This document shows positions 10,282 through 27,656 of a stretch of DNA of 28,331 nt, piece by piece; position 1 is the stretch's first letter; each line of letters begins with the position of its first letter. The position numbers and the translations under genes are program-made. A model generated the notes under the pieces. That model saw only the letters and a program-made list of their open reading frames with translations. It was not told the DNA's origin and ran no database searches. This stretch comes from a virus: IMG/VR virus record IMGVR_UViG_3300009593_002765, positions 1 through 28,331 of that record; one strand, written 5' to 3'.

Positions 10282-10294
10282 GATAATTATTTAC

Positions 10295-10744
10295 ATGAGC
10301 GAAGAAATCGTATGTAGTGGTGCCCTCTTCTATTGTTTGACAAGTAAAAGATTCTTACTACTACACAGAACACAAAGTAAACAAAAAAATGTATGGGGAT
10401 TAGTTGGTGGAACTAATGGAAAAAATGAATCTCCGTGGCCTGCATTACAGCGTGAAATAAACGAAGAAGTCGGAAAAACTCCAAAAATAATTAAAACTAT
10501 TCCTTTAGAAACATTTGTTAGTACAGACTCAAAGTTTCATTTTCATACGTACTTGTGTGTTGTTAAAGAAGAATTTCTACCATCTTTAAACGAAGAACAT
10601 GATGGATATGCTTGGGTAAGTTTTGGAAAATGGCCAAAACCTTTACACATGGGTTTAAGAAATACACTTCAAAATAAAACAAACCAAACAAAATTACAAA
10701 CTGTATTTGATCTAATAGGAATTTTAGAGAATGAAACGAATTAA
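10295..10744 (+). CDS. Nudix hydrolase
   Basis: A 149-residue protein starting MSEEIVCSGALFYC; ATG 10295 is chosen because the longer frame runs back into gp15 and this Met begins the Nudix beta strand directly. The Nudix box is G39-x5-E45-x7-R53-E54-I55-x-E57-E58-x-G60, preceded by KNVWGLVGGTNG. These residues bind Mg and hydrolyse nucleoside diphosphate-X substrates; which X cannot be told. Possible substrates are damaged dNTPs, or a nucleotide sugar or cofactor from the adjoining heptose or halogenase pathways. It is 13 bases after gp15 and overlaps the first halogenase by 14 bases, so it opens the enzyme part of the operon. A long loop separates the box from the WVSFGKWPKPLHMG tail. Confidence 0.92.
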   Translation: MSEEIVCSGALFYCLTSKRFLLLHRTQSKQKNVWGLVGGTNGKNESPWPALQREINEEVGKTPKIIKTIPLETFVSTDSKFHFHTYLCVVKEEFLPSLNEEHDGYAWVSFGKWPKPLHMGLRNTLQNKTNQTKLQTVFDLIGILENETN

Positions 10745-12239
10745 AAATATTACAATAGTAGGTGGAGGTTCTGCGGCATGGTTGGCGGCAACTTACATAC
10801 AAAATAATTTTTGGGACTTACCTATTACAGTAATAGATAAAGAAGTTGGTAATCCTATAGGAGTAGGAGAAGCAACTGTACTTACATTCACACAGTTTTT
10901 AAGGAAATGTGGTATTAATTTACCTCAATGGTTTAAACATGTAGACGGTACTTATAAGGCAGGAATAGATTTTCCGCATTGGAAAAATCCTAAAAATAGA
11001 GTCTGGCATCCTTTCTATTTAAATAGATCGTACTTTGATCTGAAATGTACTCAATACGATATTTGGTCTCAAAAAAAAGATTTAGATTTTTGTAAACATG
11101 CATTACCTTGCTACGATACAATAATGGAAAATAAATTAGATCTGTATAATAGTTTTGAAACCCTAGCATATCATATTGACGCAGGAAAGTTAGTAAAAGA
11201 GTTACAAAACATTTGTAAGAATACTGTACAAGTAATTAAAAGTGATGTTGTAAAAGTAAACAAAGACCTAGATGGCTTTATAACAAGCCTTGAACTAAAG
11301 AACGGTGCAACACATACATCAGACTTTTACCTAGACTGTACGGGCTTTATTTCGCTGTTAAAAGACCAAAAAAAGAAGGAATTACTAAACAGTAGATTGT
11401 ATACTAACTCTGCTGTTGCTGGTCATGTACCATACGAAGACTACGAAAACGAATGTACACCTTACGTAAAATGCCCAGCTGTAGATCATGGTTGGATTTG
11501 GAAAATTCCTGTTCAATCAAGGATAGGTTCAGGATTAGTATTCAATAGAGATATTACAGATCCTGATACAGCAATGCAATACTTTAGCGATCATTGGAAT
11601 GGAAGAGTAAAGCCTGAAGACTTAAAACTAATAGACTGGACCCCGTATTATAGTGAAAACTTTTGGGATAAAAATGTTGTATCAATTGGGCTTAGTGGAG
11701 GGTTTATTGAACCATTAGAAAGCACAGGACTTGCTAGTATGACATATGGTGTAGAGCAATTAGCTTTACATATACCTCAATATGTTTATAGTGAAGATAA
11801 CATAGAAACTTACAATAGATCTATGATGTCTTGGTACTCTGATGCTGTTGACTTTGTTGGAAGTCATTATGCAGATACTGAATGGGATACTGATTTTTGG
11901 AACTATGTAAAAGACGTGCATGTAAAATCTGACAAGCACTTATGGTATGAAGAATGGTTAAAAGATCCGCATAGATCTTTCTATAGTGATGTATCGAGTC
12001 CACACTTATTCCATCCGCAAAATTGGCAACTATGGTTAATCCAAATGGGATATCCTGTTAATAAAGACATTAATCGAATACCTCCTATGCAAATTGATTA
12101 TGCAATGTCAGAATTTTTACGAGCAGAAGAAATAAGAAGAAGATCAAGTATAAGTCATATTGATGCTATTGAAACTACAAATATGGGTCTTGATTGGTAT
12201 GCAACATACAACGGCCAACGTGAAGGTTTCGTGATATGA
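10731..12239 (+). CDS. Flavin-dependent tryptophan-halogenase-like protein 1
   Basis: The 502-residue product has the flavin-dependent halogenase signatures: FAD motif VGGGSAAWLAA at 10-20, the catalytic-lysine segment GTYKAGIDFPHW (K76, matching PrnA K79), WIWKIP at 255-260 (the WxWxIP motif that separates halogenases from monooxygenases) and GFIEPLESTG (E330-S331-T332-G333, matching PrnA E346 and the halide site). Such enzymes use FADH2, O2 and halide to make hypohalous acid that attacks an electron-rich ring. A reduced-flavin supplier is needed and none is seen here. Cyanophage VirX1 is a known active viral member. Substrate unknown; the C-terminal half need not bind tryptophan. It overlaps the Nudix gene by 14 bases and halogenase 2 by four (ATGA). 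Confidence 0.92.
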   Translation: MKRIKNITIVGGGSAAWLAATYIQNNFWDLPITVIDKEVGNPIGVGEATVLTFTQFLRKCGINLPQWFKHVDGTYKAGIDFPHWKNPKNRVWHPFYLNRSYFDLKCTQYDIWSQKKDLDFCKHALPCYDTIMENKLDLYNSFETLAYHIDAGKLVKELQNICKNTVQVIKSDVVKVNKDLDGFITSLELKNGATHTSDFYLDCTGFISLLKDQKKKELLNSRLYTNSAVAGHVPYEDYENECTPYVKCPAVDHGWIWKIPVQSRIGSGLVFNRDITDPDTAMQYFSDHWNGRVKPEDLKLIDWTPYYSENFWDKNVVSIGLSGGFIEPLESTGLASMTYGVEQLALHIPQYVYSEDNIETYNRSMMSWYSDAVDFVGSHYADTEWDTDFWNYVKDVHVKSDKHLWYEEWLKDPHRSFYSDVSSPHLFHPQNWQLWLIQMGYPVNKDINRIPPMQIDYAMSEFLRAEEIRRRSSISHIDAIETTNMGLDWYATYNGQREGFVI

Positions 12240-13717
12240 AGATAATAGTTTTAGGTGGTGGTACAGCTGGTTGGTTGGCCGCATTAATGATATCAAAAAT
12301 TAGACCTGAGCATAATGTTACTGTAATAGAAAGTTCTAAGATTGGTATAGTTGGTGCTGGAGAAGGAAGCACAGGCGCTCTTACAAATATAATACATAAC
12401 GAAATGTGGAATTTAGGTTGTGTTGAGAAAGACTTTATTAGCGAATGTGACGCAACAATTAAGTTTGGTATTAAACATATTGGTTGGAATAAAGATCCTA
12501 AAGCCCATTATTATGGTCCTATTGATGGATCTCCTACAAGTGGTGATGTTGCAGATGTAGTATTTTTACATGCACTAGGGTATAGAGAGCAAGATTTACT
12601 ACACATATCAAGTGAACTAGGATACAAAATACATCATAATAAAAATAGTTTTGTTGAACCAAATGGTAATCATGCTTATCATTTTGATGCACATAAAGTA
12701 GGACAGTATTTTAAAAAGATATCAACAGATGTTAAACACATTGATGCAGAAGTAAATGAAGTTATAACAGATTCAGAACATGGATGGGTTACAGAATTAA
12801 AACTTAGTAATGAACAAAGTATTAAAGGCGATATTTTTATAGATGCTAGTGGATTTAATCAAGTGCTTATGAAAGCAGTTGGTGGAAAATGGAAAAGTTA
12901 TAAAGAAAATTTGCCAGTTAATAGTGCATTACCTTTTTTATTACCTTATGAAGAAGATGAAAAAATTGAACCAGTAACAAATGCTTGGGCTCAACCTAAC
13001 GGGTGGTGTTGGCAAATACCTACAATACATAGAAGAGGTTGTGGATATGTTTTCTGTGACGACTTTGTAACGCCAGAGAAGGCTCAAGAAGAATTAGAAT
13101 TAAACTTAGGTAAAAAAATAGATCCTATTAGATTACTTAAATTTGATAGTGGCAGACAAGAAAACTTATGGATTAAAAATGTTTTATCTATTGGATTGTG
13201 TGCGGCTTTTGCTGAACCATTAGAAGCAACAAGTATACATACAACTATTTTTCAATTAAAACATTTTATATTCAGCTGTTTAGGTAAAGAAAGAGATGAA
13301 ACGTGCAATCAAGGACAAGTAGCAGACTATAATCAAAAAAATGCACATCTTTATGATACAATGAAAGACTTTCTTGTTGCTCATTATACATGCGGTCGTA
13401 ACGATAGTGAGTTTTGGAAATATATTGACAGTGGACAAACAACAACTGAGTTTGTAAAAACAATGCATGAAGTTTGTAAAAATAGAGTACCAAATCATAC
13501 GCTATTTCCAAGGCATGAAGGGTGTGCAGGATGGCCTCTTTGGAGTTATGTATTATCAGGTACTGGTAAAATAACTGATGATACTTGTAGGAAAGAGTTA
13601 CACTACAATAATGATGTTAAGATTGCCGATACTGCTTATGTTTATCATGTTAGTCAACACGATACTAAAAGTAAAGACTTACCAGACAATACTAAATTTA
13701 TAAAGGACATGCAGTGA
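12236..13717 (+). CDS. Flavin-dependent tryptophan-halogenase-like protein 2
   Basis: The 493-residue product starts MKIIVLGGGTAGWLAAL (FAD site, 7-13) and has AGEGSTGALTN near 41, the lysine segment CDATIKFGIKHIGW (K76), WCWQIP at 257-262 and FAEPLEATS at 325-333. It keeps all catalytic residues of the family but differs clearly from its neighbour: outside the motifs I see little identity, so the pair is not a recent duplication. The ring-binding loop residues after 80 (a Pro/Gly/His-rich stretch) also differ, suggesting a different substrate. It overlaps halogenase 1 and hldE by four bases each (ATGA, GTGA), giving strict translational coupling between halogenation and heptose genes. Family sure, substrate unknown. 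Confidence 0.92.
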   Translation: MKIIVLGGGTAGWLAALMISKIRPEHNVTVIESSKIGIVGAGEGSTGALTNIIHNEMWNLGCVEKDFISECDATIKFGIKHIGWNKDPKAHYYGPIDGSPTSGDVADVVFLHALGYREQDLLHISSELGYKIHHNKNSFVEPNGNHAYHFDAHKVGQYFKKISTDVKHIDAEVNEVITDSEHGWVTELKLSNEQSIKGDIFIDASGFNQVLMKAVGGKWKSYKENLPVNSALPFLLPYEEDEKIEPVTNAWAQPNGWCWQIPTIHRRGCGYVFCDDFVTPEKAQEELELNLGKKIDPIRLLKFDSGRQENLWIKNVLSIGLCAAFAEPLEATSIHTTIFQLKHFIFSCLGKERDETCNQGQVADYNQKNAHLYDTMKDFLVAHYTCGRNDSEFWKYIDSGQTTTEFVKTMHEVCKNRVPNHTLFPRHEGCAGWPLWSYVLSGTGKITDDTCRKELHYNNDVKIADTAYVYHVSQHDTKSKDLPDNTKFIKDMQ

Positions 13718-14964
13718 TAAAAATTTATGGCGACATCATGTTAGACAGATGGGTCTATGGGTCGTGTGATCGAGTAAGTCCAGAAGCTCCTATACTTGTT
13801 ATGAAAGAAGATGAATACAATTACAGTATTGGTGGTGCAGGTAATCTTGCAACCAATGTTAAAAGTATTAATGGAGATGTAGAATTATATAGTTGTGTAG
13901 CTAAGGATAAAGAAGGTTACAAGCTATTAGATTTATTATTAAAGACAGATATAAAAACTAATATTACTGTTGACGCAGACATGACAACTACAAAAACAAG
14001 ATTTGTTGGTCAAGGCGGACAGCAAGTATTAAGATGGGACCGAGAAAGAATTTACAAACAAGATGGTGTATTAGAACGATTATTAAAGAATGTACAAGAA
14101 GATGATATAGTTTGTATAAGCGATTATGCAAAAGGCACAGTCAAAGCAAACACAGTAAGTCAATTATTTCGAAAGGCTAAAGTTCTTGTTGATCCAAAAC
14201 AAAAGGATTATTTTTATGATGGTGCATTTTTGGTTAAACCAAATATGAAAGAATATGTTGATTGGTTTGGAAGATTTAATGAAATAGATGCAACAAACAT
14301 AATGAGAAAACATAACTGGCAATGGTTAGTTGTTACCGATGGAGCAAACGGGATACATGTTCTTTGCGAAGATACAAGATACAAACATTTTAAAGAAGCA
14401 ACAGATCAAATTGTTGACGTTACTGGAGCAGGTGATACTGTTTTAGCTGTTATTGCTCATTGCTTACATGAAGGCAAAGATGTTTTTGAAGCATGTGAAG
14501 TAGCGTGTTATGCGGCCGCCAGAGCAGTTGAAAGACAAGGTACTACAGTAATAACCAAAAAAGATTTAAAAAAGAATATTACTGTATGGACAAATGGTGT
14601 GTTTGATGTGTTGCATAAAGGGCATCTAGAACTGCTTAAATTTGCCCGTAAGCAAGGGGATAAACTTATTGTAGGTATTAATAGCGATGCCAGTGTAAAA
14701 CGCTTAAAAGGTGAAACTAGACCCATTAACGATGTTAATACACGTAAAGAACAGCTTGAAAGTTTACCTTGGGTAGACCAGATCGTAGTCTTCGATGACG
14801 ACACTCCTTTAAATAATATAAAACAATATCAACCCGACATTATTGTAAAAGGTGGTGATTATATTGTTGATACTGTAGTAGGAAATGAGTTAGCTGAGGT
14901 AGTAATATTTCCAACTATAGAAGGTGTTAGTACAACTAAAACAATAGGAAAAATGACGCAATGA
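13714..14964 (+). CDS. hldE: HldE: bifunctional heptose 7-P kinase / heptose 1-P adenylyltransferase
   Basis: Two domains make the 416-residue product. Residues 1-280 are a PfkB-type kinase: GDIMLDRWVYGSCDRVSPEA, SIGGAGNLATNV and catalytic DVTGAGDTV (235-243, D241 as base). Residues 289-416 are a nucleotidyltransferase: WTNGVFDVLHKGHLELLKFA with the HxGH motif at 301-304, then GETRPIN and the closing GVSTTKT. HldE phosphorylates D-glycero-D-manno-heptose 7-phosphate at O1 and, after GmhB removes the 7-phosphate, adenylylates heptose 1-phosphate to ADP-D,D-heptose. E. coli HldE has 477 residues; both active sites are intact in this shorter form. The start codon is GTG inside a four-base GTGA overlap with halogenase 2; hldD follows with an ATGA overlap. 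Confidence 0.93.
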   Translation: MIKIYGDIMLDRWVYGSCDRVSPEAPILVMKEDEYNYSIGGAGNLATNVKSINGDVELYSCVAKDKEGYKLLDLLLKTDIKTNITVDADMTTTKTRFVGQGGQQVLRWDRERIYKQDGVLERLLKNVQEDDIVCISDYAKGTVKANTVSQLFRKAKVLVDPKQKDYFYDGAFLVKPNMKEYVDWFGRFNEIDATNIMRKHNWQWLVVTDGANGIHVLCEDTRYKHFKEATDQIVDVTGAGDTVLAVIAHCLHEGKDVFEACEVACYAAARAVERQGTTVITKKDLKKNITVWTNGVFDVLHKGHLELLKFARKQGDKLIVGINSDASVKRLKGETRPINDVNTRKEQLESLPWVDQIVVFDDDTPLNNIKQYQPDIIVKGGDYIVDTVVGNELAEVVIFPTIEGVSTTKTIGKMTQ

Positions 14965-15806
14965 AAATACTAGTTACAGGACACAAAGGCTTTATTGGAA
15001 GTCATATGGCTCAGTATCTAATGCATAAAGGTCACGAAGTAGACGGTTTTGAATGGATTGAAAACGTAGTACCAGCTGTTGAACAATATGACTGGGTAAT
15101 ACATTGTGGAGCAATATCAGACACTACTGAAAGAGATGTTAACAAAGTATGGAGACACAACTACGAGTTTACTATGCGTTTGTTACAAATTTGTGACAAC
15201 TATCAAACTAATATTCAGTTAGCAAGTACATCAGCAGTATACGGACCAAATAAATCATTTAACGAAGAAGATCCTGTATATCCACAGACACCTTATGCTT
15301 GGAGCAAGTATTTGGTTGATAAGTTTTTAGTAGACAATGGCTTTGAAAATTTTAATACGCTTGTACAAAGTTTTAGATATTTTAATGTATATGGTCCAGG
15401 TGAAGGACACAAAGGCGACCAAATGAGTATGGTTAGTAAATTTCAAGTACAAGCATCTACAGATGGAGTAATTAAACTATTTAAAAATAGTAAGAATTAC
15501 AAAAGAGATTTAGTTTGCGTATACGACCTAGTACGAATACACGAAGAAATGTTGCATCAAGATGTTAGTGGAATTTATAACTTAGGTACAAATAAAGCTG
15601 TTGACATAGAAACTGTAGCTAAATTAATTGCTAAAGATCAAGATGCAAAAATAAAATATATTGACATGCCAGCAAAGTTAAAAAATCAATATCAAGATTA
15701 TACTTGTGCTGATAATGCCAAACTACACAATACTATACCAATTAGACATTGGATAACACTAGAAGAATATTTAAAGGATGTTGTAAAAAATGCAGGAAAG
15801 ACTTGA
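14961..15806 (+). CDS. hldD: HldD: ADP-heptose 6-epimerase
   Basis: A 281-residue short-chain epimerase with the NAD(P) glycine motif VTGHKGFIGSH (G7-x2-G10-x2-G13), catalytic PYAWSKYLVD (Y112, K116), and the HldD-specific run FRYFNVYGPGEGHKG at 138-152, followed by LFKNSKNYKRDLVCVYDL, VSGIYNLGTNKAV and a LKNQYQDYTCAD segment, each matching E. coli HldD (310 residues). It epimerises ADP-D-glycero-D-manno-heptose to ADP-L-glycero-D-manno-heptose, the donor for LPS inner core. It sits between hldE (ATGA overlap) and a cupin (17-base overlap). I consider a generic NDP-sugar epimerase unlikely given the specific matches and the neighbour. Confidence 0.92.
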   Translation: MKILVTGHKGFIGSHMAQYLMHKGHEVDGFEWIENVVPAVEQYDWVIHCGAISDTTERDVNKVWRHNYEFTMRLLQICDNYQTNIQLASTSAVYGPNKSFNEEDPVYPQTPYAWSKYLVDKFLVDNGFENFNTLVQSFRYFNVYGPGEGHKGDQMSMVSKFQVQASTDGVIKLFKNSKNYKRDLVCVYDLVRIHEEMLHQDVSGIYNLGTNKAVDIETVAKLIAKDQDAKIKYIDMPAKLKNQYQDYTCADNAKLHNTIPIRHWITLEEYLKDVVKNAGKT

Positions 15807-16200
15807 AGGTAAGATAGAAAAAGGTTGGGGATACGAATTAATTTGGGCAACCAATGACAAGTACTGTGGAAAAATTATGGTATTTGAAAAAGTGGGATCT
15901 AAATTTAGTTTACATTTCCATAAAGAAAAAGACGAAACTTGGTTTGTTAATCAAGGAAGATTTTTATTACGTTGGATAGATACTAAAACTTCAAAATTAC
16001 ATGAACAAGAACTTACCGTTGGAATGACTTGGCATAATCCTCCATTACAACCTCATCAATTAGTTGCTATGGAAGCTGGAAGTAGTATTACTGAAGTTAG
16101 TACTGCTGATTCTGTAGAAGATAACTATCGTATTGCACCAGGTGATTCACAAAACGAGCCTGTAGACGTTACGCCTGAGCCTCGCCCCACTTCACAATAA
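15790..16200 (+). CDS. Cupin (type II sugar-phosphate isomerase-like) protein
   Basis: The 136-residue single-domain protein carries a textbook cupin motif 1, G36-x5-H42-x-H44-x4-E49-x6-G56, and a motif 2 region MTWHNPPLQPHQLVAM with H89, giving a three-His-one-Glu metal site. The GWGYELIWATNDKYCGKIM start is like the stand-alone cupins of marine phages and the C-terminal domain of type II mannose-6-phosphate isomerases. In the heptose operon it could act on a sugar or sugar phosphate, perhaps as an isomerase or epimerase; this is inference. A role in place of the missing GmhA is conceivable but that enzyme belongs to another (SIS) fold. It overlaps hldD by 17 bases and its last 32 bases overlap the giant structural gene on the other strand. 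Confidence 0.82.
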   Translation: MQERLEGKIEKGWGYELIWATNDKYCGKIMVFEKVGSKFSLHFHKEKDETWFVNQGRFLLRWIDTKTSKLHEQELTVGMTWHNPPLQPHQLVAMEAGSSITEVSTADSVEDNYRIAPGDSQNEPVDVTPEPRPTSQ

Positions 16201-19200: not shown

Positions 19201-22141
19201 ATGTTCCACTTGAACCAGCATGAGCAAGATTAGTTCCTGCTAAACCTGTAAAGCTAGTTGGTAATGTTGGAGCTGTACCTGTTACACTTGCTGATGCAAT
19301 TATACCTTGTGTAGCATAACCTGTAGTGTTTATACTATCAATTGTTACTGTTGCATCGTTAGTTGGACTTGTTCCGCCTAACGCTGTACCTGCAATAGTA
19401 AATGTTTGGTCTTTTCCATAGTCAGTACCTGCTGTATCTATTGCTACTGAATAAATTGAACCGTTATTAGTTATATCAAAAATAGCACCAGTACCTGCAA
19501 GGTTAACTAACGATTTACCTGATACACTATTACCATTAAATAACGCTGGAGCTGTTGATTCATCTGAACCTTCTGCTCTAACATCAGTAATTCCGCCTTG
19601 TCCATTTACTGAAACAACTCTTAAGTATATGTCATTAGCTGGACTTGCGCCACCTAAATTTGCACCAGAACAAACAATAACGTCAGCTGTGTTATAACCT
19701 GTTCCTGTTTGTTGAAGCTGTACCATAATTGAAGCTGATGTACTTACTGTTTTATTAATTTGAAATTCAAATCCGCCGCCACTGCCTCCAGTGAAAGACA
19801 GTCCTGAACCGCCAAAGCTATAAGATAAAGTTGTATCGGGTGGTGTACCCATTCTTGCCGCATCAGCTATAAAACTTGTACCTGTAATTGTTCCACCGCC
19901 ACCAACACTTGTAACTTGTACCATAACATCATTACCACTGCCCCATGTTTGTGAACCATCTGAACTTGTTCCTGGTACGACTTGCGAACCTACTAATCTA
20001 AGTAAATCTTTATTAGCATAACCTGAAGTTTCGTTAGGTGAACTAAATGTTATTGTACTATAAGCATTGTTTTCCCAACCAATATCAACAGTAGTTGCAC
20101 CCCAAGTACCAGTACCACTATTATAAGTTGATGCTACATTTTGATAAGTTATACTTCCACTAAGTGCTGTTCCTGTAGCACTTGCACCTGTTATTCCACC
20201 TATTCCGTCAATAGTTGTAACTAAAATAGTTGCATCGTTACCAGGAGTTAAACCTCCTAAGTCAGTTCCTAAAACTTTAACTGTATCACCTACTTTATAT
20301 CCTGAACCTGCTTGATTAATTCCGTCTACTGTATAGTTAACACCGGATCTACTTATATTAAATTGTCCATTTGCGCCAGCTGGGTTAGGCATAGTTCCGC
20401 TAACACCTGTATAAGTTTCTGTATTTTTTGCAACTGAAGATGTAAACGACCCACTCATACTTACTGTATTACCTACAATATTGTTTACAAATATAGCATC
20501 GCCTGAACCATTATCACAAGCTAATCCTGCTATAATATTTGTTGTTGATCCAACTGTAAACTGTGTATTACCAGGAGCAATATCTGAAGTTAGTTGCATA
20601 GCTAATGGTGATCCACCTGGAGTACTCGAAATACCAGTAACCTGTGTACCTACTGGAATTGCTGTTGGATAATTAATCGGAGCACCAATTTCTGGAACAT
20701 CTCCTGTAGTAGCTATCTTGTTTTCACTAATTTGTGCCGCTAATGAAAGCGTCATAGTACCATTTGTACCATTACTGTATACAGAAAAGTCTGGGTTTCC
20801 TATTGCCGCTCCAGTATAAAATCCACCTTGTCTTAACTGAGTATAAGTTGTTGACAATACTTGTCCGTTGGTTGTACCAACTTTTGCTTTAGCGTAAAAT
20901 GTAAATGTAGTAGCAGTTGGAACTTCTTCAATAACAAATGATCCTTCTGCTCTTGCCGCTCCGCCTATAGCATCTTCTAATGCTTTAATTGTAATTGGAG
21001 TACCTTCAACAAATCCATGTTGTCCTAATGTAGTAACTGTAATTTTAGAAGCACCAATGCCACTTGTGCCAGTTGATGCATCTGTAACAACTGTTTGCAC
21101 TTGTGTATCTGTACCTGGAATTTCGTATACACTAGGATAGCCTCTCATCATTCCAATAGCTGACCATTTAGTTGGCTGTAAGCCGTACTCAAAGTCTGCG
21201 TCAAGCATTGATAATGGAGGTGCAATTCTCATACGCTCAATAGCGTCTGTTCCAAAGTCGTACGGTCTAACTTTTTGTTCTTCGTTATCTACAAAAATTT
21301 GTATTTCGTCGTCGGTTGAATGTGTACTTGTATTGTATTTTAAGTCAACAACTGTAATAGAATCTGTTGTCTGTAAATATTTTGGAAAGTCAGCATCTGC
21401 ATTTTCATTTGCATTTACTGAATCATATTTTACAACATATCCACTAGAGTCTCTAGGAGTAACATCGTCAACTCTTGTTACTTTGCCGCCTTTAGTTGCA
21501 TCAGTAAAGTTAAAAATTACTTCTGATTTAGTAGAGTTTGTAATAATTAACAAATCACTTGCGTCGTAGTTTCCAATAAATCTAATGTGTCCTAAACCTT
21601 TTCTTTCAAAAGTTGGTAAAGAACTTGTTCCATTTGTTATAACTGAAATAACATAACCTGATAGTGCTTGTATTCTTGTTCCAGCCGCCGGTTCGCTTGT
21701 GTAAGCTGTATTAATAACTTGTGCATGTGTAGATTGATATGGTGTGCTTTGTGCAGAATTACTTAAAACATGATTAATAATCAAGTCTCTTGTAAACTGT
21801 TTTGCTTTAATTTCTGGTTGTCTATTACCGTCAATTTGTGCTACAGTCTTTTCCCAGTAAGTGTTAGCAATACGTGTTGTTTCTTCATTACCACCGTATT
21901 TTAAATCATGTATCCAAGCTACAACATTAAAATTTGTATCTCGTCTACATCTTGCACCATCGTACGTGTATCCAGAAAAGTCTGTTGCATTATCTGCAAC
22001 CTGTTGTTGTATCCATGCTTCAACTTCATATTGAATAAAGTTTTTGTTTGCGTTAATTAAAAATTCGGCGTTTGGATAATGACTATCGTCTAATCCTAAT
22101 CCTGGGTAAAATTTATAATTATCAATTTTTTTCTTTGCCAT
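16169..22141 (-). CDS. Giant virion protein (1990 aa), probable tail-fibre or baseplate-appendage component
   Basis: This is the longest gene. The Gly/Ser/Thr/Asn-rich beta-type composition, lack of enzyme motifs and position before fibre-like genes support a virion role. The N-terminal 170 residues (KFYPGLGLDDSHYPNAEFLI, YEVEAWIQQQVADNATDF) look like a globular anchoring domain. Residues about 590-1045 hold five Gly-rich repeats of some 93 residues. Residues about 1140-1560 form a more conserved aromatic core (YMRPDSFFIHRPYDGGVQLG, MQMIGIQYSWYGAGFIDWMV). Later comes a 'MIDNEIISYTAKNDTTKTFS' strand typical of phage appendage proteins. The last 200 residues end in LDLEQLKELTNTTLGGRGTF and NVIVKWGEAQA. 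Comparable giant structural proteins are usual in marine T4-like phages. It follows the fibre-like gene by five bases. The precise place in the virion is unknown. Confidence 0.82.
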   Translation of the reverse strand: MAKKKIDNYKFYPGLGLDDSHYPNAEFLINANKNFIQYEVEAWIQQQVADNATDFSGYTYDGARCRRDTNFNVVAWIHDLKYGGNEETTRIANTYWEKTVAQIDGNRQPEIKAKQFTRDLIINHVLSNSAQSTPYQSTHAQVINTAYTSEPAAGTRIQALSGYVISVITNGTSSLPTFERKGLGHIRFIGNYDASDLLIITNSTKSEVIFNFTDATKGGKVTRVDDVTPRDSSGYVVKYDSVNANENADADFPKYLQTTDSITVVDLKYNTSTHSTDDEIQIFVDNEEQKVRPYDFGTDAIERMRIAPPLSMLDADFEYGLQPTKWSAIGMMRGYPSVYEIPGTDTQVQTVVTDASTGTSGIGASKITVTTLGQHGFVEGTPITIKALEDAIGGAARAEGSFVIEEVPTATTFTFYAKAKVGTTNGQVLSTTYTQLRQGGFYTGAAIGNPDFSVYSNGTNGTMTLSLAAQISENKIATTGDVPEIGAPINYPTAIPVGTQVTGISSTPGGSPLAMQLTSDIAPGNTQFTVGSTTNIIAGLACDNGSGDAIFVNNIVGNTVSMSGSFTSSVAKNTETYTGVSGTMPNPAGANGQFNISRSGVNYTVDGINQAGSGYKVGDTVKVLGTDLGGLTPGNDATILVTTIDGIGGITGASATGTALSGSITYQNVASTYNSGTGTWGATTVDIGWENNAYSTITFSSPNETSGYANKDLLRLVGSQVVPGTSSDGSQTWGSGNDVMVQVTSVGGGGTITGTSFIADAARMGTPPDTTLSYSFGGSGLSFTGGSGGGFEFQINKTVSTSASIMVQLQQTGTGYNTADVIVCSGANLGGASPANDIYLRVVSVNGQGGITDVRAEGSDESTAPALFNGNSVSGKSLVNLAGTGAIFDITNNGSIYSVAIDTAGTDYGKDQTFTIAGTALGGTSPTNDATVTIDSINTTGYATQGIIASASVTGTAPTLPTSFTGLAGTNLAHAGSSGTLNVTRTSGTYTAVINASGSGYKPGNEITVAGTNLGGSSPTNDMTVIVSAVDGSGGLNTMGTVTGTAVAGGGLNLVNGVTLSDYTTTSINSSTNIPFEALATMEVTWPNAHGIVPGDTFIVTVSSDSGVGGNNHSLAAGSFIAITVPTSKTIRYNTRAPGNIVEFAAGTSTEDRVRGQVYMRPDSFFIHRPYDGGVQLGTGGPQHGAQAIRQSKKYIRYQSGKGIMYTTGALFAPSYDVRSVVSNGTEIGSTLTITTDDNDHGAQVGGKIRLIGVETEGFNGEYIITQIIDERQLKCLTTRRLGGTNAVLGFAAQMTVVGWHGATVRSGIFDDQNGIYWEYDGTNVSVAQRTSTKQIAGTGAVNPDSNLITGTNSRFRDQLKAGDRIVIKGMTHVVANVDSQSQITITPDYRGVNPAAACKINLVTDKKVLQEEWNLDKLDGSGKSGYKMDVRYMQMIGIQYSWYGAGFIDWMVRGADGNFVFCHRMRNSNVNTEAFMRSGNLPVRYEVTNEGAVSTLTSEIDSSQTTFVLNESKFFPETGTVMIDNEIISYTAKNDTTKTFSGCTRGTSLTNFQAGAVRQYSASPASGHAARTGVILISNTITPLISHWGSAFLTDGGFDEDRGYIFNYTEAGIEVSTTRQTAFLLRLAPSVSNAIVGDLGDRELLNRAQLLMQGLELTSDGVDPDNSNAPIIGGIVIEGILNPQNYPVNPADVGWQGLSGLAQGGQPSFAQIASGGSVSWNSGATSTYSTAAVMATVEADVTMMPWDRAYTRYNDIYFNLADFEAENINVGDEISTSGNNYFPQGTVVQSVQKNSNAGWCRVVFSQYPSGNSGNGAQQRFKKGGDQVNSNYQFFTKSVWDTAAAKAGTLLGDSGGEPTNQSDIKMPAGSIVSNVQGPLLFGDQGGSGIEYYKVTFNNSFTGTASPGDLFNFTFTQAPYAQPGETVFSFIAQPGERSTLDLEQLKELTNTTLGGRGTFPNGPDVLAINIYKTEGTATTANVIVKWGEAQA
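19010..20360 (-). repeat. Five tandem Gly-rich repeats (~93 residues) in the giant protein
   Basis: Each unit has the pattern Y/F-x-V...G-x-G/D-Y-x2-G/K-D...V-x-G-x-x-LGG-x-(S/T)P-x-NDxT(V/I)-x-V-x2-(V/I)-x3-GG-(I/L), e.g. GSGYKVGDTVKVLGTDLGG and GSGYKPGNEITVAGTNLGG. The LGG cores encode near 20255, (19930, degenerate), 19650, 19378 and 19098, a period of about 280 bases for the last three steps. Boundaries are approximate. Protein similarity exceeds DNA similarity, so the repeats are old. Confidence 0.8.
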
Positions 22142-22146
22142 ATTCT

Positions 22147-22701
22147 TTACGCTCCAAATGCTACTGCTAATGCTGTTGCTGTTGAATCAACATAGGATTT
22201 TCTAGTGGCGTGTGTTCCTACTGTCGGGTCTTTTTGCATTAATAAATTGTCAGTCACTGTTACATCTCCGTTTAGATTTGTTCCACTAGCATTAATATTA
22301 CTTGCTGAACTATCTGGTGCAGTTGTCATATCAATTCCGTAAGCTCTAATTTGTCCAGGAGTAGTATATCCAATGTCAACATTTTCGATTGTTCCGGGTA
22401 TTCCTATGTTGTTGATTACTATTCTTGAATTTATTACTGATAAAATCGTGTTATTATTAGTATCATTTACTTTGAAAACCCCACCATTAACAGCTAAACT
22501 ATCAAAAGAGTTTGAAACTGTTGTTCCTGTATCATCACTAGTATCACCAGTTTCAGCTTGAACAAACGCTTTACCGTTAAGTAAAATTGATTGCACATCT
22601 AATGATACTCCAGTAATTTTACCTGCTGTATCAACGTTGAAACTCGGACTTTCAAATCCGTTTTGTGCTTGAAATTTATCGTTTACTACTGTGCCTGCCA
22701 T
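22147..22701 (-). CDS. Fibre-like virion protein (184 aa)
   Basis: No named family recognised. The product (MAGTVVNDKFQAQNGFESPS...) is Asn/Thr/Ser-rich and beta-like, with a DTNNNTILSVINSRIVINNI stretch of the kind seen in trimeric fibre shafts, GIPGTIENVDIGYTTPGQIR and a C-terminal KDPTVGTHATRKSYVDSTA. That last motif resembles the 'A(T)KxYVDS' repeat of tail-fibre proteins. It lies nine bases after one fibre-like gene and five before the giant gene, with AGGAT before the ATG, so all three are probably cotranscribed and assembled together. A small connector or fibre tip between larger appendage proteins is plausible. Confidence 0.72.
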   Translation of the reverse strand: MAGTVVNDKFQAQNGFESPSFNVDTAGKITGVSLDVQSILLNGKAFVQAETGDTSDDTGTTVSNSFDSLAVNGGVFKVNDTNNNTILSVINSRIVINNIGIPGTIENVDIGYTTPGQIRAYGIDMTTAPDSSASNINASGTNLNGDVTVTDNLLMQKDPTVGTHATRKSYVDSTATALAVAFGA

Positions 22702-22709
22702 TGTCTATC

Positions 22710-24197
22710 CTATATTGCACTCATATCTTTAACAACTATTGTACCTTGCATAGCCGCATGAGCTGTACATTGGTATTGATAGTTTCCTGAAATATTTGAC
22801 GGAACTTTCCAATATAAGGTTCCTGATGTTGCGCCTTGAGCACTTACACCTGTTGTTTCTGTACCGTCTGGAGCTACATGAACTAAACCGTTATTATATT
22901 GTACTCCACCACTTGTTTCAATTTGGAAAGGATGCATTGACATAGATGAATCATTTAAGTTAAATGCTATTGTTGCTCCTGCTAAACAATAAATTGTTGG
23001 ATCTTCTGTAACACCGTATTGATCAAATTTATATCCGTTACTATTATCAGCTGTAACAACTAAAGTTGTAATTGCTGGGTAAGCAATTTGATCAAGTGTA
23101 TATCCGCTGTCTTCCCATCCACCTGATTTTTTAACTAATATATTACCAGTTGCTACGCCTGTAGTGTTTACATCAGTTAATGAGTTTAAGTCATTTGATC
23201 CTGAGTAATCAATAGTAACTGTGTCGCCTGACACTGATGTTGAAATATTTGTACCACCAGCAATAGTTAACGTATCTGTTTTACTATCTGCCGCCGCTGT
23301 ACCCGAGTCTGAAGCAACATTACTAAATGCAAGTTGGTTTACTTCACCCGAGTTAGGTGAACCTGTATAAGCAATAGTAACTGTGTCTCCAACAATAGTA
23401 GTTGAAATGTTATCACCACCTGCTACAGTTAATGTATCTGTTTGTGAATTAGCTGTTGTTGTTCCCGAATCTGCATCTACTGTTGCAAAAATATTTTGAT
23501 TTCCGCCTGAACTTGGAGTTGTCCAAGTAAATGTTCCATTACCATTTGAAGTTAATACTTGAGCCGCTGACCCTTGAGTAATACTTAAATCTGTAAGTAC
23601 AGTAGGTATACTTGGTTTGTTATTTAAATTATTATAATTTAAGTAGTATGAACCATCTTGTCCATCTAATGTATCAGCGTCAGTTCCTGCACCACCAGTA
23701 GTTGCATCTGTTCCAGGTGCCCATTTACCACCGTCCCACTTTAAAACATTTCCTGTTTGTGGTGGATTTGAAGTTGTGTCTACATCTGTTAATGCATTTA
23801 TGTTTCCTAAGTACGCAATTGATTTAATAGGATCAGTGTAGTTTGTGATGGCTCCTCCACTTGTATCCATTAATAATTTGTGCCACGTTCCGCCGTGTGC
23901 AACATGAACTGTTCCTGATTCATGATTGTGTAATATCACACCGTGATATGTTGATGCGTTAATTGCGTTTAGTGCGTTGTTAGTTCCAACCTTAAACGAA
24001 ATTTTATTAACTTTTGTGTCATCTACTGGAACATCTATTTCCAAACTCGAATTGACGATATCTAGTAAGTTTGTGCCATCGCCTAAAGCATTATATAGTT
24101 CAGTTGTATTTGCGTTGATTTTAGTAGCGCCACCTCTAAGAGTATCGCCAGTTCCATCATTTACCGCTGTACCTATATTTAATATTGATTTTGCCAT
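22710..24197 (-). CDS. Fibre-like protein with C-terminal cupredoxin (type 1 copper) domain
   Basis: The 495-residue product opens with SILNIGTAVNDGTGDTLRGG and KINANTTELYNALGDG, a module common at the N-terminus of marine-phage fibre proteins. Mid-protein are two tandem copies of a unit containing DSGT-x3-DSxTDTLT(V/I)AGG-x-NIST-x3-GDTVTI-x-Y, and two 'LTDVxTT...GNxLxxxxGxW' segments. Residues about 373-495 form a cupredoxin: H422 (SMSMHPFQIET), then YQCTAHAAMQGTIVVK with C477, H480 and M483, the C-x2-H-x2-M spacing of amicyanin. All four type 1 copper ligands are in place. Whether it binds copper, or merely uses the fold as a binding domain, cannot be seen. AAGGG/AGAG precedes the ATG, and an internal late promoter lies 65 bases upstream. 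Confidence 0.85.
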   Translation of the reverse strand: MAKSILNIGTAVNDGTGDTLRGGATKINANTTELYNALGDGTNLLDIVNSSLEIDVPVDDTKVNKISFKVGTNNALNAINASTYHGVILHNHESGTVHVAHGGTWHKLLMDTSGGAITNYTDPIKSIAYLGNINALTDVDTTSNPPQTGNVLKWDGGKWAPGTDATTGGAGTDADTLDGQDGSYYLNYNNLNNKPSIPTVLTDLSITQGSAAQVLTSNGNGTFTWTTPSSGGNQNIFATVDADSGTTTANSQTDTLTVAGGDNISTTIVGDTVTIAYTGSPNSGEVNQLAFSNVASDSGTAAADSKTDTLTIAGGTNISTSVSGDTVTIDYSGSNDLNSLTDVNTTGVATGNILVKKSGGWEDSGYTLDQIAYPAITTLVVTADNSNGYKFDQYGVTEDPTIYCLAGATIAFNLNDSSMSMHPFQIETSGGVQYNNGLVHVAPDGTETTGVSAQGATSGTLYWKVPSNISGNYQYQCTAHAAMQGTIVVKDMSAI

Positions 24198-24202
24198 CTC
24201 TT

Positions 24203-24715
24203 TTAACCCTTATCAAATGTTAGTGTTGTATTATCCATCGTATTCTCTATACTGTCAAAAGTATTTATTCCACTTGACTCCTCAGTTGATGTATCTGCGA
24301 CTATCGCTGGAGGAGTTAATTGATGGATTGTTTTAGCGTATGTTGCATGGAATAATAACTTGGCGCCTGTATAATTACTGCTTTTAGGTGATACATTTAT
24401 AAAACAAGTGCTTTCGTCTACAGTAACTGATATGTCTATTAGTTCCTGATTAATACTTGATCTCCCAAAAATAGTTGCTACTGCTCTATCCGGTCTAGCA
24501 ACAACACTTAATTGCATAATTTCTTTTTCATTTGAGTCGTATTCAACTGTAATTTGGTATATTGCACTACTAAAATCTCCAACAGCCCACCTGTCCATTA
24601 CAGTACCGGTAAAAACACCAATCCAGTTTCCTTTGAAACTGAAACTACTTCGATTTCTTAACTCTATAGTGTTATTTTGACCTTTTGAAAATAAATTAGC
24701 TGTGCTTTTTTCCAT
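24203..24715 (-). CDS. Probable virion structural protein, unknown family (170 aa)
   Basis: I do not recognise this protein. It is acidic and beta-rich (SSFSFKGNWIGVFTGTVMDR, SAIYQITVEYDSNEKEIMQL, ELIDISVTVDESTCFINVSP, GAKLLFHATYAKTI) and looks like one globular beta-sandwich domain with a flexible Ser/Asp-rich C-terminal tail from about residue 135. It is first in the late-promoted structural set (GATAAATA 19 bases upstream of the ATG, GGAG eight bases before it), six bases ahead of the cupredoxin fibre gene, so a virion role such as fibre adaptor or baseplate attachment is the natural guess. No signal peptide, membrane segment or enzyme motif is seen. Confidence 0.72.
   Translation of the reverse strand: MEKSTANLFSKGQNNTIELRNRSSFSFKGNWIGVFTGTVMDRWAVGDFSSAIYQITVEYDSNEKEIMQLSVVARPDRAVATIFGRSSINQELIDISVTVDESTCFINVSPKSSNYTGAKLLFHATYAKTIHQLTPPAIVADTSTEESSGINTFDSIENTMDNTTLTFDKG
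24262..24269 (-). promoter_or_regulatory. Internal late promoter element AATAAATA
   Basis: AATAAATAC on the minus strand lies inside the 3' part of the 170-residue structural gene, 65 bases before the cupredoxin-fibre ATG. It fits the local NATAAATAC consensus and would give that gene and those after it an additional late start. Confidence 0.45.
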
Positions 24716-24733
24716 TATACATGCTCCATATTG

Positions 24734-24741
24734 TATTTATC
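24734..24741 (-). promoter_or_regulatory. Late promoter element GATAAATA for the fibre-region operon
   Basis: GATAAATAC on the minus strand, in the 56-base gap after gmhB, followed by GGAG (24724-24727) eight bases before the ATG at 24715. It separates late expression of the structural genes from the enzyme genes upstream. Confidence 0.75.
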
Positions 24742-24771
24742 GTTTTAAACAGATATGTAGAAGTATAATAA

Positions 24772-25356
24772 TTAGGACAAGTCTACTAAACTATGTGCAT
24801 ATTGGTGGAGATTATCAAATACTTCGGTGCGTTTTTTAAGGTCTTTATTAGCAAATGAGTTAAGTTTTTTCTCAGCTTCTTCACCATATCCTGTGCGTAC
24901 TAGAATAGGCTTTGCTTTAGCTTTAACTGCGGCTTTAAGATCTGTTATTTTATCGCCAACGTATACACCGTTAGTCCAATCTACACCAATTTCTGCTGAT
25001 GCTCTTTTAAACATTCCAGGGTTAGGCTTTCTATAAGGGTCGTCTTTAAATGGCGTAGTTGAATAGTATAATCCATTAATACTTTTACACCCTATTTCAC
25101 CTAATAGTTTTAACATATAATTATTTACTAAATCTACATCAACAGGATCAAATAGACCTTTTTGAATTCCTGATTGATTTGTTAATATTACAACATCATA
25201 CCCTTTGTCTCGAATCAGTTTTATTGCTTCTAAACTTCCGGGTATAGGTTTAAATTGTTCTGGTTTTATGCAGTAAGGCGGAACTCCTTTTACAGTTAAT
25301 CCGATATCTTCGTTAATTGTTCCGTCACGGTCTAATCCTATTACTGGTATTGACAT
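24772..25356 (-). CDS. gmhB: GmhB: D,D-heptose 1,7-bisphosphate 7-phosphatase
   Basis: A 194-residue HAD phosphatase with motif I GLDRDGTIN (D9 nucleophile, D11 acid/base), motif II ILTNQSGIQKGLF (T59-G63), the RKPNPGM segment (K110) and motif IV YVGDKITDLKAA (D135, D139). The TNQSG and RKPxPGM pairing is that of the GmhB/HisB-N group. GmhB removes the 7-phosphate from heptose 1,7-bisphosphate between the two HldE reactions. The usual four-ligand zinc loop before RKPxPGM is gone: the equivalent segment is YYSTTPFKDDPYRKPNPGM with no Cys. It therefore belongs to zinc-free relatives. Its ATG directly follows the SGNH gene stop (TAAATG). Histidinol-phosphatase is the alternative, but hldE and hldD in the same window favour GmhB. 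Confidence 0.88.
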   Translation of the reverse strand: MSIPVIGLDRDGTINEDIGLTVKGVPPYCIKPEQFKPIPGSLEAIKLIRDKGYDVVILTNQSGIQKGLFDPVDVDLVNNYMLKLLGEIGCKSINGLYYSTTPFKDDPYRKPNPGMFKRASAEIGVDWTNGVYVGDKITDLKAAVKAKAKPILVRTGYGEEAEKKLNSFANKDLKKRTEVFDNLHQYAHSLVDLS

Positions 25357-26208
25357 TTAAGGTCTCCATCTATCATCTGACCAACCATGTTTATCTTTAT
25401 TGAACCAGTCTAGCTCGTATAATAAAATGGTATCCTTGCTTAATTTTTCTCTCCACTGCTCAACAAATTCTGTTGTTTGTTGATCTAATTTTTCTACATG
25501 ATTGCTTACAAATTCAGCGGCTTCATGCGTAAGAGGATGTACTTCTGGTTGTATCATATGTTTATGTCCTTCATCTTTGCTAGGTATACTAGTAGGTCTA
25601 CTTTTAAAAAACTTGTCGTCTGCATTAAACTTTAGTGCAGTAAGTATAGGAGGTGTTGAAAGTTTTATTTCTTCTTTATATTTTTCTAACACAGCCCTTA
25701 CGTCTTCAATAGTAAGATATTTTTGTTGAGTGAATTCTGTAGATAATTCTGTCCAACCATCTTGCCACTCTCTAAATCCTGTTGATATAACTTGACAACC
25801 TATACTTGCTAATGCTCTATGTGTGCTTGATATTAATGCACAATCTCTCATTACAGCGTGTACAGGATCTGCCCAAACGTTTTGATTTTCGTAAAAATAA
25901 TTATTTAAAACAAAAGATTGATTTTCGTTATTTAAATTAAAGTTGCCGGGGGTCCACCAACCTTTGTTCATATGATATCTATCTTCACGAAACATACTTG
26001 TCCATTGTAATAGTATTACATCATCTTTTGTAAAGTTATGAACCGTGTTGGCTTCCCACAACCTTGTTGCTATATATTGATTACCTGCTCCACTCTTAGC
26101 CCAGTTTTCTCCATAGTAACCTTTGTTTTTATATTGATGTATAAGAACGTCAGCCCAGGTAGGATAAAAATATTGTGATAAACTACACCCAAATGCAAAA
26201 ATTCTCAA
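25357..26208 (-). CDS. SGNH-hydrolase-like protein of the marine-phage 'GCSLS' type
   Basis: A 283-residue protein beginning MRIFAFGCSLSQYFYPTWAD, equivalent to SGNH block I with candidate nucleophile S9. Then come ENWAKSGAGNQYIATRLWEA with the GxN block (N43), a DDVILLQWTSMFREDRY strand, and PEVHPLTHEAAEFV near 221-234 with candidate catalytic His H224. The Asp normally three residues before that His is absent (Pro; a Glu lies two before), so esterase activity is uncertain. Such proteins with a 'PTWAD' start are frequent in marine myoviruses in my recollection and are often annotated hypothetical. SGNH enzymes deacetylate or deacylate glycans and lipids, which would fit a surface-glycan module. 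It overlaps halogenase 3 by four bases (ATGA) and abuts gmhB. Confidence 0.75.
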   Translation of the reverse strand: MRIFAFGCSLSQYFYPTWADVLIHQYKNKGYYGENWAKSGAGNQYIATRLWEANTVHNFTKDDVILLQWTSMFREDRYHMNKGWWTPGNFNLNNENQSFVLNNYFYENQNVWADPVHAVMRDCALISSTHRALASIGCQVISTGFREWQDGWTELSTEFTQQKYLTIEDVRAVLEKYKEEIKLSTPPILTALKFNADDKFFKSRPTSIPSKDEGHKHMIQPEVHPLTHEAAEFVSNHVEKLDQQTTEFVEQWREKLSKDTILLYELDWFNKDKHGWSDDRWRP

Positions 26209-27656
26209 ACTAAACTCCGTAATAAATCTATCATAGTCTTATGTGGAACAGCTTTAACAGTATCAAAATCATTTTTTTCTTTAATTACTATTTCAATATG
26301 TTGTTTGACTTCTGGTGCGATATGTTGGTATTGTTTTTGTAAACTTTCTCTGTTAAAAATATCCATACCGTGTAATACTAATGCATGATTATATTCATTA
26401 AATAGTAATTTTTTACTTGTATCAGAAAAGTCATCTGCAATTGGTAGTCTATGTTTCCACATTTGAAGATTGCTATGTAAACTGCTAGGTAACTCTATTT
26501 GACTTACGTCTTGCCAAAATTCTGTATCACGTCTATTACTAATATAATGTAATGCAATAAAGTCTCTAATATTATCCATAATTGCATTAACTTCTGTATT
26601 GTATCTAGCAACCGATGCTGGATTGTAATTTATTATTCTATTACAAAGTAAAAATGCTTGTTGTATACTTGTTCCAATAGAACTTGCTTCTAAAGGTTCA
26701 ACAAAATTAGCACTTAGTCCTATAGCACAACAGTTCCCAATCCAAGGTTTAGTAAGAGCACCAGGATCAAACTTAATTGTTTTTGCTATAGATATGTCCC
26801 AACCTAGATATTTTTCTACTTCGAGTTTGGCTTGATCAGCTGTAATGTAGTCGCTATCAAAAATATATCCGTTTCCTTTTCTACCCCAAACAGGAATTCT
26901 AAACATCCAACCATAATCCATTGCTCGAGCAAGTGTCCAAATAGGAATTTCTTCTTCTTCAGCTGTAGGAAATACTATTGCTTCTTTCATTTTAAGAAAG
27001 TTTCCGTAAGATTTCCAATGAGCTCCAAGTTTGTTTATTAATAATCTTTTAAATCCTGTACAGTCTATATAAAAGTCATGCTCGTATATTTGTTTTTTTC
27101 CAACTAATGAAGTAATATTAGTATCATGTTTAACGTCAACTATTTCATCATCTATAACTACACAACCTTTTTCTTTAGCTTTCCTTGTTAAAAAATCATT
27201 TAACTTCATTGTATTAAAATGATATTGTGAAACTCCAGTTTCATTTGGACGTTCTTCAATAAATTTCATAAAAGGAGTTTTGTTTTCCCAAAGATATTTT
27301 CCTGTTAACTCTTTAGGATCAACATCTTCACTCATTAGTTTTGAGTAAGCTATTGGTAATCCGTTTTGGTTAGCTTCAAAAGGTCCGTGAACGCTTTGTA
27401 AATAATCTCGTCCTCCCCAATTTTGAAACATAATTCCACTTTTAAATGTAGCATCACATTCTTTTACCATGTCTCCTGCTACAATTCCGCAGTAGTCCAT
27501 AAATCGTGTCCAATGCTCAGTAGATCCTTCACCAACACCTATAGTAGGAATGTTAGTGCTTCGAATAACTTCAACATGGAAGTTTGGAAACGTTGTTTTA
27601 ATTATTAGTGCTGATACAAAACCTGCTGTGCCGCCACCAACGATTGCTATTTTCAC
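26205..27656 (-). CDS. Flavin-dependent tryptophan-halogenase-like protein 3
   Basis: The 483-residue product has IVGGGTAGFVSAL (FAD site, 6-18), VGEGSTEHWTRFMDYCGI, the catalytic-lysine segment ECDATFKSGIMFQNWG (K72), WMFRIP at 250-255 and NFVEPLEASSIGTS (E323). The second Trp of WxWxIP is Phe here; the rest is canonical. It is about as different from halogenases 1 and 2 as they are from each other, though its motifs (CDAT-x-K, EPLEA) are nearer to 2. The start is GTG within a four-base GTGA overlap with the exported-protein gene, and its end overlaps the SGNH gene (ATGA). Substrate unknown. The change in WxWxIP does not rule out activity, since variation at that Trp occurs in the family. 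Confidence 0.9.
   Translation of the reverse strand: MKIAIVGGGTAGFVSALIIKTTFPNFHVEVIRSTNIPTIGVGEGSTEHWTRFMDYCGIVAGDMVKECDATFKSGIMFQNWGGRDYLQSVHGPFEANQNGLPIAYSKLMSEDVDPKELTGKYLWENKTPFMKFIEERPNETGVSQYHFNTMKLNDFLTRKAKEKGCVVIDDEIVDVKHDTNITSLVGKKQIYEHDFYIDCTGFKRLLINKLGAHWKSYGNFLKMKEAIVFPTAEEEEIPIWTLARAMDYGWMFRIPVWGRKGNGYIFDSDYITADQAKLEVEKYLGWDISIAKTIKFDPGALTKPWIGNCCAIGLSANFVEPLEASSIGTSIQQAFLLCNRIINYNPASVARYNTEVNAIMDNIRDFIALHYISNRRDTEFWQDVSQIELPSSLHSNLQMWKHRLPIADDFSDTSKKLLFNEYNHALVLHGMDIFNRESLQKQYQHIAPEVKQHIEIVIKEKNDFDTVKAVPHKTMIDLLRSLV

Follow-up and report, generated by a model that had tools for sequence, protein, structure and literature searches.

The stretch of DNA analyzed here (the window) is the whole of IMG/VR virus record IMGVR_UViG_3300009593_002765, 28,331 bases at 35.6% GC, and it encodes three divergent flavin-dependent halogenases (FDHs), designated HalA, HalB and HalC, members of an enzyme type that adds chlorine or bromine to aromatic compounds. 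The reading that we tentatively prefer is that these represent a fixed set retained in a lineage of jumbo-like myoviruses, most likely as part of a cassette that modifies tail adhesins. Such a set is normal for the lineage, and it is a variant of an already described gene cluster. To our knowledge no natural substrate is known for any viral halogenase, VirX1 of cyanophage Syn10 included, and the value of the finding is that it connects viral halogenases to tail adhesins in a way that can be tested.

Three catalytically intact halogenases

The three open reading frames (ORFs) are open at the following coordinates.

10731..12239, + strand: HalA, flavin-dependent halogenase of phage clade A, 502 aa (PF04820, 288 bits)
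12236..13717, + strand: HalB, flavin-dependent halogenase of phage clade B, 493 aa (PF04820, 302 bits)
26205..27656, − strand: HalC, flavin-dependent halogenase of phage clade C, 483 aa, GTG start, W-x-F variant (PF04820, 303 bits)

Each spans positions 1 to approximately 445 of the 458 in profile PF04820, with scores of 288–303 bits against a cut-off of 21, and all three fall within PHROG family phrog_2928. The glycine motif for flavin adenine dinucleotide (FAD) reads GGGSAA in HalA, a GxGxxA form present in half of its clade, and GGGTAG in HalB and HalC. The segment containing the catalytic lysine is GT-Y-K, AT-I-K and AT-F-K in HalA, HalB and HalC, respectively, the WxWxIP motif is WIWKIP, WCWQIP and WMFRIP, and the segment containing the catalytic glutamate is EPLESTGL, EPLEATSI and EPLEASSI. 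Both catalytic residues (K79 and E346 of PrnA) are thus present in all three enzymes. Within clade A the corresponding K76 and E330 were invariant (34/34), and across clades A, B and C the lysine was retained in 119/119 sequences and the glutamate in 118/119; the W-x-F form of HalC is common to 36 of the 42 clade C members. Pairwise identity between the three enzymes is 27–33%. These data bear out the initial annotation of this DNA, which had described three divergent, catalytically intact FDH-type enzymes with a W-F variant in the third. As judged from sequence, HalA, HalB and HalC are genuine PrnA-type FDHs and look active, and they may act on different substrates.

Sequence comparison with solved structures placed tryptophan halogenases among the best relatives of all three, with matches to PrnA ending near residues 408–442, before or within the C-terminal part that binds free tryptophan. 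The FDH fold was assigned by model for HalC and by sequence for HalA and HalB. Structure prediction, a check that the initial annotation had proposed, gave a confident FDH fold for HalC, the most deviant of the three: the AlphaFold2 model from 31 sequences had a predicted local distance difference test (pLDDT) score of 90.6, and its nearest solved structures by Foldseek were tryptophan halogenases, with template modelling (TM) scores of 0.84–0.90 to PyrH, PrnA, SttH and BrvH. Among flavin reductase families, PF01613 and PF03358 were the ones searched, and neither was found in the 23 related records examined for each (six isolate records included); reduced FAD (FADH2) is therefore probably supplied by the host.

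Phylogeny, selection and copy number

In a FastTree phylogeny built from 138 phage and 60 bacterial representatives with one solved tryptophan 6-halogenase, the three enzymes fell in separate clades: HalA in clade A with 34 sequences (support 100), HalB in clade B with 43 (99) and HalC in clade C with 42 (93). None of these clades has a bacterial member. Each clade contains a cyanophage or pelagiphage enzyme, clade A that of S-SSM7, clade B that of S-RIM44 and clade C those of S-H38 and HTVC008M, while VirX1 and other enzymes of Syn10, P-TIM40 and S-RIM44 lie outside all three. Support for the deeper branching, including the sister relation of clades B and C, was weak (60 and 0). The separate acquisitions suggested in the initial annotation do not fit these phage-only clades, and recent acquisition from bacteria is not supported by the tree. 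A recent duplication as the source of the three is ruled out by their 27–33% identity, and on sequence grounds they are long separated. Comparison with orthologs gave dN/dS values of 0.05–0.16, indicating purifying selection, with synonymous sites near saturation.

Duplications of types A-A-B and B-B are present in relatives, including a tandem duplication of the clade A enzyme in A-A-B order (L062:4947-9378, and L069). A clade A-like halogenase 46% identical to HalA lies beside an HldD-like gene (L204:4001-5440) on a contig binned as an Alcaligenaceae metagenome-assembled genome, possibly a mis-binned phage and a lead to a host. Matches to the halogenases were also found in four Campylobacter phage records.

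PF04820 genes were counted, with split frames joined, in 44 IMG/VR records and six isolates. At least three halogenase ORFs were found in about 30/44 IMG/VR records, with a maximum of five, a proportion that is not a prevalence since the records were picked for carrying a halogenase and some are near-duplicates. The initial annotation had regarded three halogenases in one phage as unusual, which these counts contradict. Records of the window lineage repeat the arrangement of two adjacent halogenases and a third approximately 13 kb away on the opposite strand, and another record (G039) contains five full-length genes at 31.4–43.1 kb; catalytic lysine and glutamate are conserved in the groups of four- and five-halogenase records. 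Among isolates, S-RIM44 has three full-length halogenases, Syn10 two, and P-TIM40 two adjacent plus a divergent third. The statement that single viral halogenases are known was incomplete, two prnA genes having been tabulated in each of two cyanophages in 2010 (Sullivan et al., PMC3037559) and S-RIM44 having three. The clade B enzymes of S-RIM44 (L154 10013-11449) and S-PM2 (L461 10001-11476) have glutamine in place of the catalytic glutamate (EPLQATSI), a change that suggests lost or altered activity in this cyanophage branch and because of which three fully intact halogenases were found in none of the cultured phages examined. These data indicate that multi-halogenase sets are stably maintained in several lineages of large phages and are not peculiar to a single contig.

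A GroEL/GroES pair (PF00118 and PF00166; L132:384-2406) adjoins a four-to-five-halogenase island, and ORFs of similar size are present in L104, L122 and L152. FDHs are often difficult to fold, so a folding role for this pair is conceivable. Divergent PF04820-like proteins of approximately 400 aa, which depart from the usual FDH motifs, were also observed beside islands (L140:3322-4536, L136:15534-16700 and L112:2342-3586).

Association of halogenases with tail adhesins

The positions of glycine-rich ORFs (at least 15% Gly, 150–420 aa) relative to halogenases were analyzed in five complete isolate genomes of cyanophages and pelagiphages, S-H38 not included. Of the 13 such ORFs, 12 are no more than 10 kb from a halogenase (1.7 expected; 0/20000 circular shifts), and eight are within 5 kb (0.9 expected; p=0.001). 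Those of Syn10 are within approximately 5 kb of VirX1 and its neighbour. Where tested, in Syn10, S-WAM1, S-CREM1 and one IMG/VR island, the glycine-rich ORFs belong to tail-fibre family phrog_863 (and PF21722 where that profile was tested), and six of nine further isolates have glycine-rich ORFs within 10 kb of a halogenase. Genes for 2-oxoglutarate (2OG) oxygenases also cluster near halogenases (36 against 12.4 expected; 0/20000), and psbA, another auxiliary gene, is not near glycine-rich genes.

Several proteins beside halogenases are labelled 'DNA endonuclease V' (phrog_274, denV), at L144:12631-13230, in S-H38 (L157 6392-7024 and 9434-9925) and in S-SSM7 (L155 7450-8004). Those at the S-H38 and S-SSM7 sites match 2OG-Fe(II) oxygenase profiles, and the labels look misannotated on this basis.

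Gene organization and a proposed heptose cassette

The other genes of this part of the window are as follows.

10196..10744, + strand: NUDIX hydrolase, first gene of the HalA/HalB operon (PF00293, E=5.9e-15), overlapping the HalA start by 14 nt
13714..14964, + strand: HldE-like heptose-7-phosphate kinase/heptose-1-phosphate adenylyltransferase with rfaE domains I and II (PRK11316, 337 bits; curated cut-off 521)
14961..15806, + strand: HldD-like ADP-heptose 6-epimerase (TIGR02197, 219 bits; cut-off 274.6)
15790..16200, + strand: small cupin (PF07883, phrog_7851)
16169..22141, − strand: virion structural protein, 1990 aa (phrog_5838, 837 bits)
22147..22701, − strand: 184-aa protein between the genes for the gp10-like and large virion proteins; no family match, order conserved in relatives
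22710..24197, − strand: gp9/10-like baseplate wedge/tail fibre connector (phrog_677, E=4.5e-88)
24203..24715, − strand: 170-aa protein, syntenic in relatives with conserved order
24772..25356, − strand: GmhB-like HAD phosphatase (D,D-heptose 1,7-bisphosphate phosphatase; phmmer to solved GmhB structures 4pnh, 1.3e-20, and 2gmw, 3.9e-17)
25357..26208, − strand: SGNH-hydrolase-like ORF, 283 aa, possible esterase; GCS, SGAGN and HPLTHEA blocks conserved in an alignment of seven orthologs
27653..28015, − strand: 120-aa ORF coupled to HalC, present in some relatives only
28027..28331, − strand: 2OG-Fe(II) oxygenase, truncated by the window end (PF13640, 7.4e-15)

HalA and HalB belong to one operon in the order NUDIX-HalA-HalB-HldE-HldD-cupin, with overlapping starts and stops (ATGA between HalA and HalB, GTGA between HalB and HldE). 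HalC overlaps each of its two neighbours, the 120-aa ORF and the SGNH-like ORF, by 4 nt, with the GmhB-like gene next. The proposed coupling of the halogenases to sugar-nucleotide genes thus holds for HalA and HalB but not for HalC. A library search found no Pfam or PDB relative of the SGNH-like ORF, and its placement in the SGNH family is putative.

Three genes of the ADP-heptose pathway, HldE, GmhB and HldD, are in the window. The exact reactions of the HldE- and HldD-like proteins can be assigned only provisionally, as their scores are below the NCBIfam equivalog cut-offs. Beyond the right end of the window, relatives encode in order a large tail protein, three tandem adhesins, a tail-fibre-assembly-like protein, a 367-aa protein, 2OG oxygenases, a carbamoyltransferase, a 2OG oxygenase, a DUF6445 protein, a further 2OG oxygenase and HalC. 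The carbamoyltransferase lies outside the 28 kb window, and just beyond it in syntenic relatives G004, G009, G012-G015, G020 and G022. The tandem adhesins contain 10.6% Cys, 3.5% Trp and 18.9% Gly, and two such arrays (L200:5281-7830 and L285:14001-16414) have cysteine (approximately 10%) and tryptophan (3.5%) contents that are extreme for a phage structural protein.

The 367-aa protein contains a GT9-like GCDSLGQHMAKALG stretch, and its moderate model (pLDDT 74) has GT9 heptosyltransferases as top folds, including WaaC, WaaF and TibC, the last of which heptosylates an adhesin (E 3.5e-9 to approximately 1e-6; TM approximately 0.5). The Pfam GT9 profile gave no match over its cut-off in 15 records, and a PDB sequence search with the 367-aa protein was also empty. 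This single GT9-like gene is always beside tail adhesins. The GmhA isomerase (PF13580) was absent from 14 records, including S-SSM7, whose 111-aa protein annotated as GmhA has no Pfam family match. HldE, HldD, GmhB and the GT9-like protein together would form a nearly complete route for making and using ADP-heptose, without GmhA.

A similar order is found in S-SSM7, where the 367-aa protein (59% identity), carbamoyltransferase (64%) and adhesin (39%) are followed by a clade A halogenase, HldE, cupin and HldD, next to neck genes. Small differences aside, the cassette is collinear in the window relatives and in the cyanophages S-SSM7, Sf-FS3 and S-CAM1.

Lineage of the window phage

T4-like structural genes in the window encode two tail tube proteins, a 1092-aa sheath, a gp15-like sheath stabiliser, the gp9/10-like baseplate protein and the 1990-aa virion protein. 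The sheath is most similar to those of Sinorhizobium phage Phosso and Agrobacterium phage Atu_ph07 (470–490 kb), with the PA5oct group next, and psbA was found in none of the 17 related IMG/VR records searched and in 5/6 marine isolate records. Because of this sheath similarity and the lack of psbA in the 17 records, the window phage is placed by sequence among the relatives of jumbo myoviruses of rhizobia and Pseudomonas, and identity as a cyanophage is ruled out. The kinship with VirX1 and cyanophages implied by the initial annotation likewise fails, given the nearest sheaths and the position of VirX1 outside all three enzyme clades. The longest syntenic record retrieved is 261,806 bases, and the source is an uncultured marine phage, probably of giant size. 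A gene for a NifU/IscU-like Fe-S scaffold lies between the tail tube genes (window 1410-1790), and P-SSM2 also has a NifU-like gene.

Proposed role and alternative explanations

In the proposed scheme HldE, GmhB and HldD would make ADP-heptose, from which the GT9-like transferase, encoded upstream of HalC in relatives, would place heptose on the tandem tail adhesins. The carbamoyltransferase, 2OG-Fe(II) oxygenases and SGNH-like enzyme would then modify the heptosylated adhesins further, and the halogenases, using FADH2 from host reductases and halide from sea water, would act on adhesin aromatic residues (Trp/Tyr) or on an aromatic group attached to the adhesins. The step from gene adjacency to substrate is one that we infer, as are heptosylation, halogenation, the substrate, host flavin supply and timing. 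A wider proposal, possible but doubtful, is that phage FDHs, VirX1 among them, halogenate proteins, adding chlorine or bromine to the glycine-rich tail adhesins of the phage itself, within a virion-decoration module of glycosylation, carbamoylation and hydroxylation.

Several observations weigh against adhesin modification. The window stops short of the adhesin genes, whose presence in the window phage is deduced from near relatives, and the halogenases of P-SSM2 (clade C), S-PM2 (clade B) and S-B64 are away from glycine-rich tail genes. A number of the associated isolates have the locus through common descent and are not independent events, which reduces the effective sample; the same pattern may also arise from an insertion hot-spot close to tail-fibre genes, although psbA is not there. 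The same cassette occurs without a halogenase in Sf-FS3 and S-CAM1, and the halogenase is therefore an optional addition to it. Glycine-rich tail proteins of IMG/VR islands have ordinary tryptophan contents and the adhesins of Sf-FS3, a phage without a halogenase, are equally tryptophan-rich; tryptophan richness was accordingly rejected as a sign of halogenation.

A rather unlikely alternative, but one with a published basis, is that during infection the cassette makes a diffusible secondary metabolite, halogenated and derived from a sugar or an amino acid: the S-SSM6a cluster, described in 2021 and comprising carbamoyltransferase, methylase, halogenase, 2OG enzymes, cupin and HAD genes, was read as producing a halogenated secondary metabolite or decorating the capsule (PMC7824862), and HalA shares 41% identity with the S-SSM6a/S-SSM7 enzyme. 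Carbamoyltransferases and FDHs are moreover typical natural-product tailoring enzymes. However, the window annotation contains no polyketide synthase, nonribosomal peptide synthetase or peptide-precursor gene, and genes for tail fibre, adhesin and baseplate proteins are interspersed with those of the cassette, with the GT9-like transferase adjoining the adhesins. Adhesin modification is favoured over small-molecule synthesis, with modest confidence. ADP-heptose and GT9 enzymes normally build the core of lipopolysaccharide (LPS), a role consistent with remodelling of the host surface (LPS or capsule) during infection, in which halogenation and heptose/carbamoyl decoration would block superinfection. 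Capsule decoration was offered as the alternative reading of the S-SSM6a cluster (PMC7824862), yet FDHs need electron-rich aromatic substrates that LPS sugars do not offer and the GT9-like gene keeps its place beside the adhesins, and we regard such remodelling as improbable.

Halogenation of free tryptophan or indole as conventional auxiliary metabolism, for example for pyrrolnitrin-like protection, has been suggested repeatedly in cyanophage papers (PMC2984593, PMC9964418) and agrees with the tryptophan halogenases among the best PDB relatives. It is nevertheless very improbable, given that similarity to PrnA and RebH mostly stops before the part binding free tryptophan, that no other pyrrolnitrin gene is present and that there are three to five copies per phage. 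Just as improbable is retention of the FDH fold for another flavoprotein role, such as that of a hydroxylase or oxidase. The W-x-F of HalC in place of W-x-W, EPLEA[T/S]S in place of EPLESTG at the halide site of HalB and HalC, and the glutamine substitution in the cyanophage clade B branch would fit such a role, but halogenation requires both the lysine and the glutamate, residues that hardly vary across clades A, B and C, and some bacterial homologues also have alanine after EPLE and serine two residues on.

Halogenation of tail adhesins, if confirmed, would add a new type of virion modification, and the enzymes would serve as a source of halogenases that act on proteins. If the adhesins are not halogenated, phage genomes hold many ancient FDHs whose metabolite is still to be found.

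Comparison with known systems

The closest described counterpart is the S-SSM6a/S-SSM7 cluster (PMC7824862), which shares the HalA clade (41% identity), carbamoyltransferase (64%), GT9-like protein (59%) and adhesin (39%), together with HldE/HldD, cupin and 2OG enzymes. The halogenase, 2OG oxygenase, cupin and HAD phosphatase of such clusters are all present in the window, and S-SSM7 has a PF05175 gene, a candidate for their HemK-like methylase. S-SSM7 differs in having one full-length halogenase and a divergent frame, whereas the three FDHs of the window lineage are divided between two opposed operons, and the phage lineage is a different one. S-RIM44 resembles the window in carrying three PF04820 genes, two adjacent and one distant, but its clade B gene has the Glu to Gln change and the other two lie outside clades A, B and C. 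VirX1 (PDB 6qgm) is likewise a viral PF04820 FDH with intact lysine and glutamate that adjoins glycine-rich tail-fibre genes and 2OG oxygenases; it is 28–30% identical to HalA, HalB and HalC over approximately 420–440 residues and outside their clades.

PrnA, RebH, PyrH and SttH share the fold, FAD site and catalytic lysine and glutamate with the window enzymes. They differ in showing approximately 25% identity in the fold alignment, in a C-terminal part for free tryptophan that is not recognisable by sequence in the window enzymes, and in belonging to natural-product clusters. SrpI and MibH, FDHs that act on tryptophan of ribosomal peptides (PMC10858898), provide a precedent for the proposed chemistry, but belong to clusters for ribosomally synthesized and post-translationally modified peptides, and no specific homology link to them was seen here. 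TibC is, by the model, a putative fold neighbour of the GT9-like protein beside the adhesins; its system is one of bacterial autotransporter glycosylation without a halogenase, and the iron-binding part of TibC is not established in the GT9-like protein.

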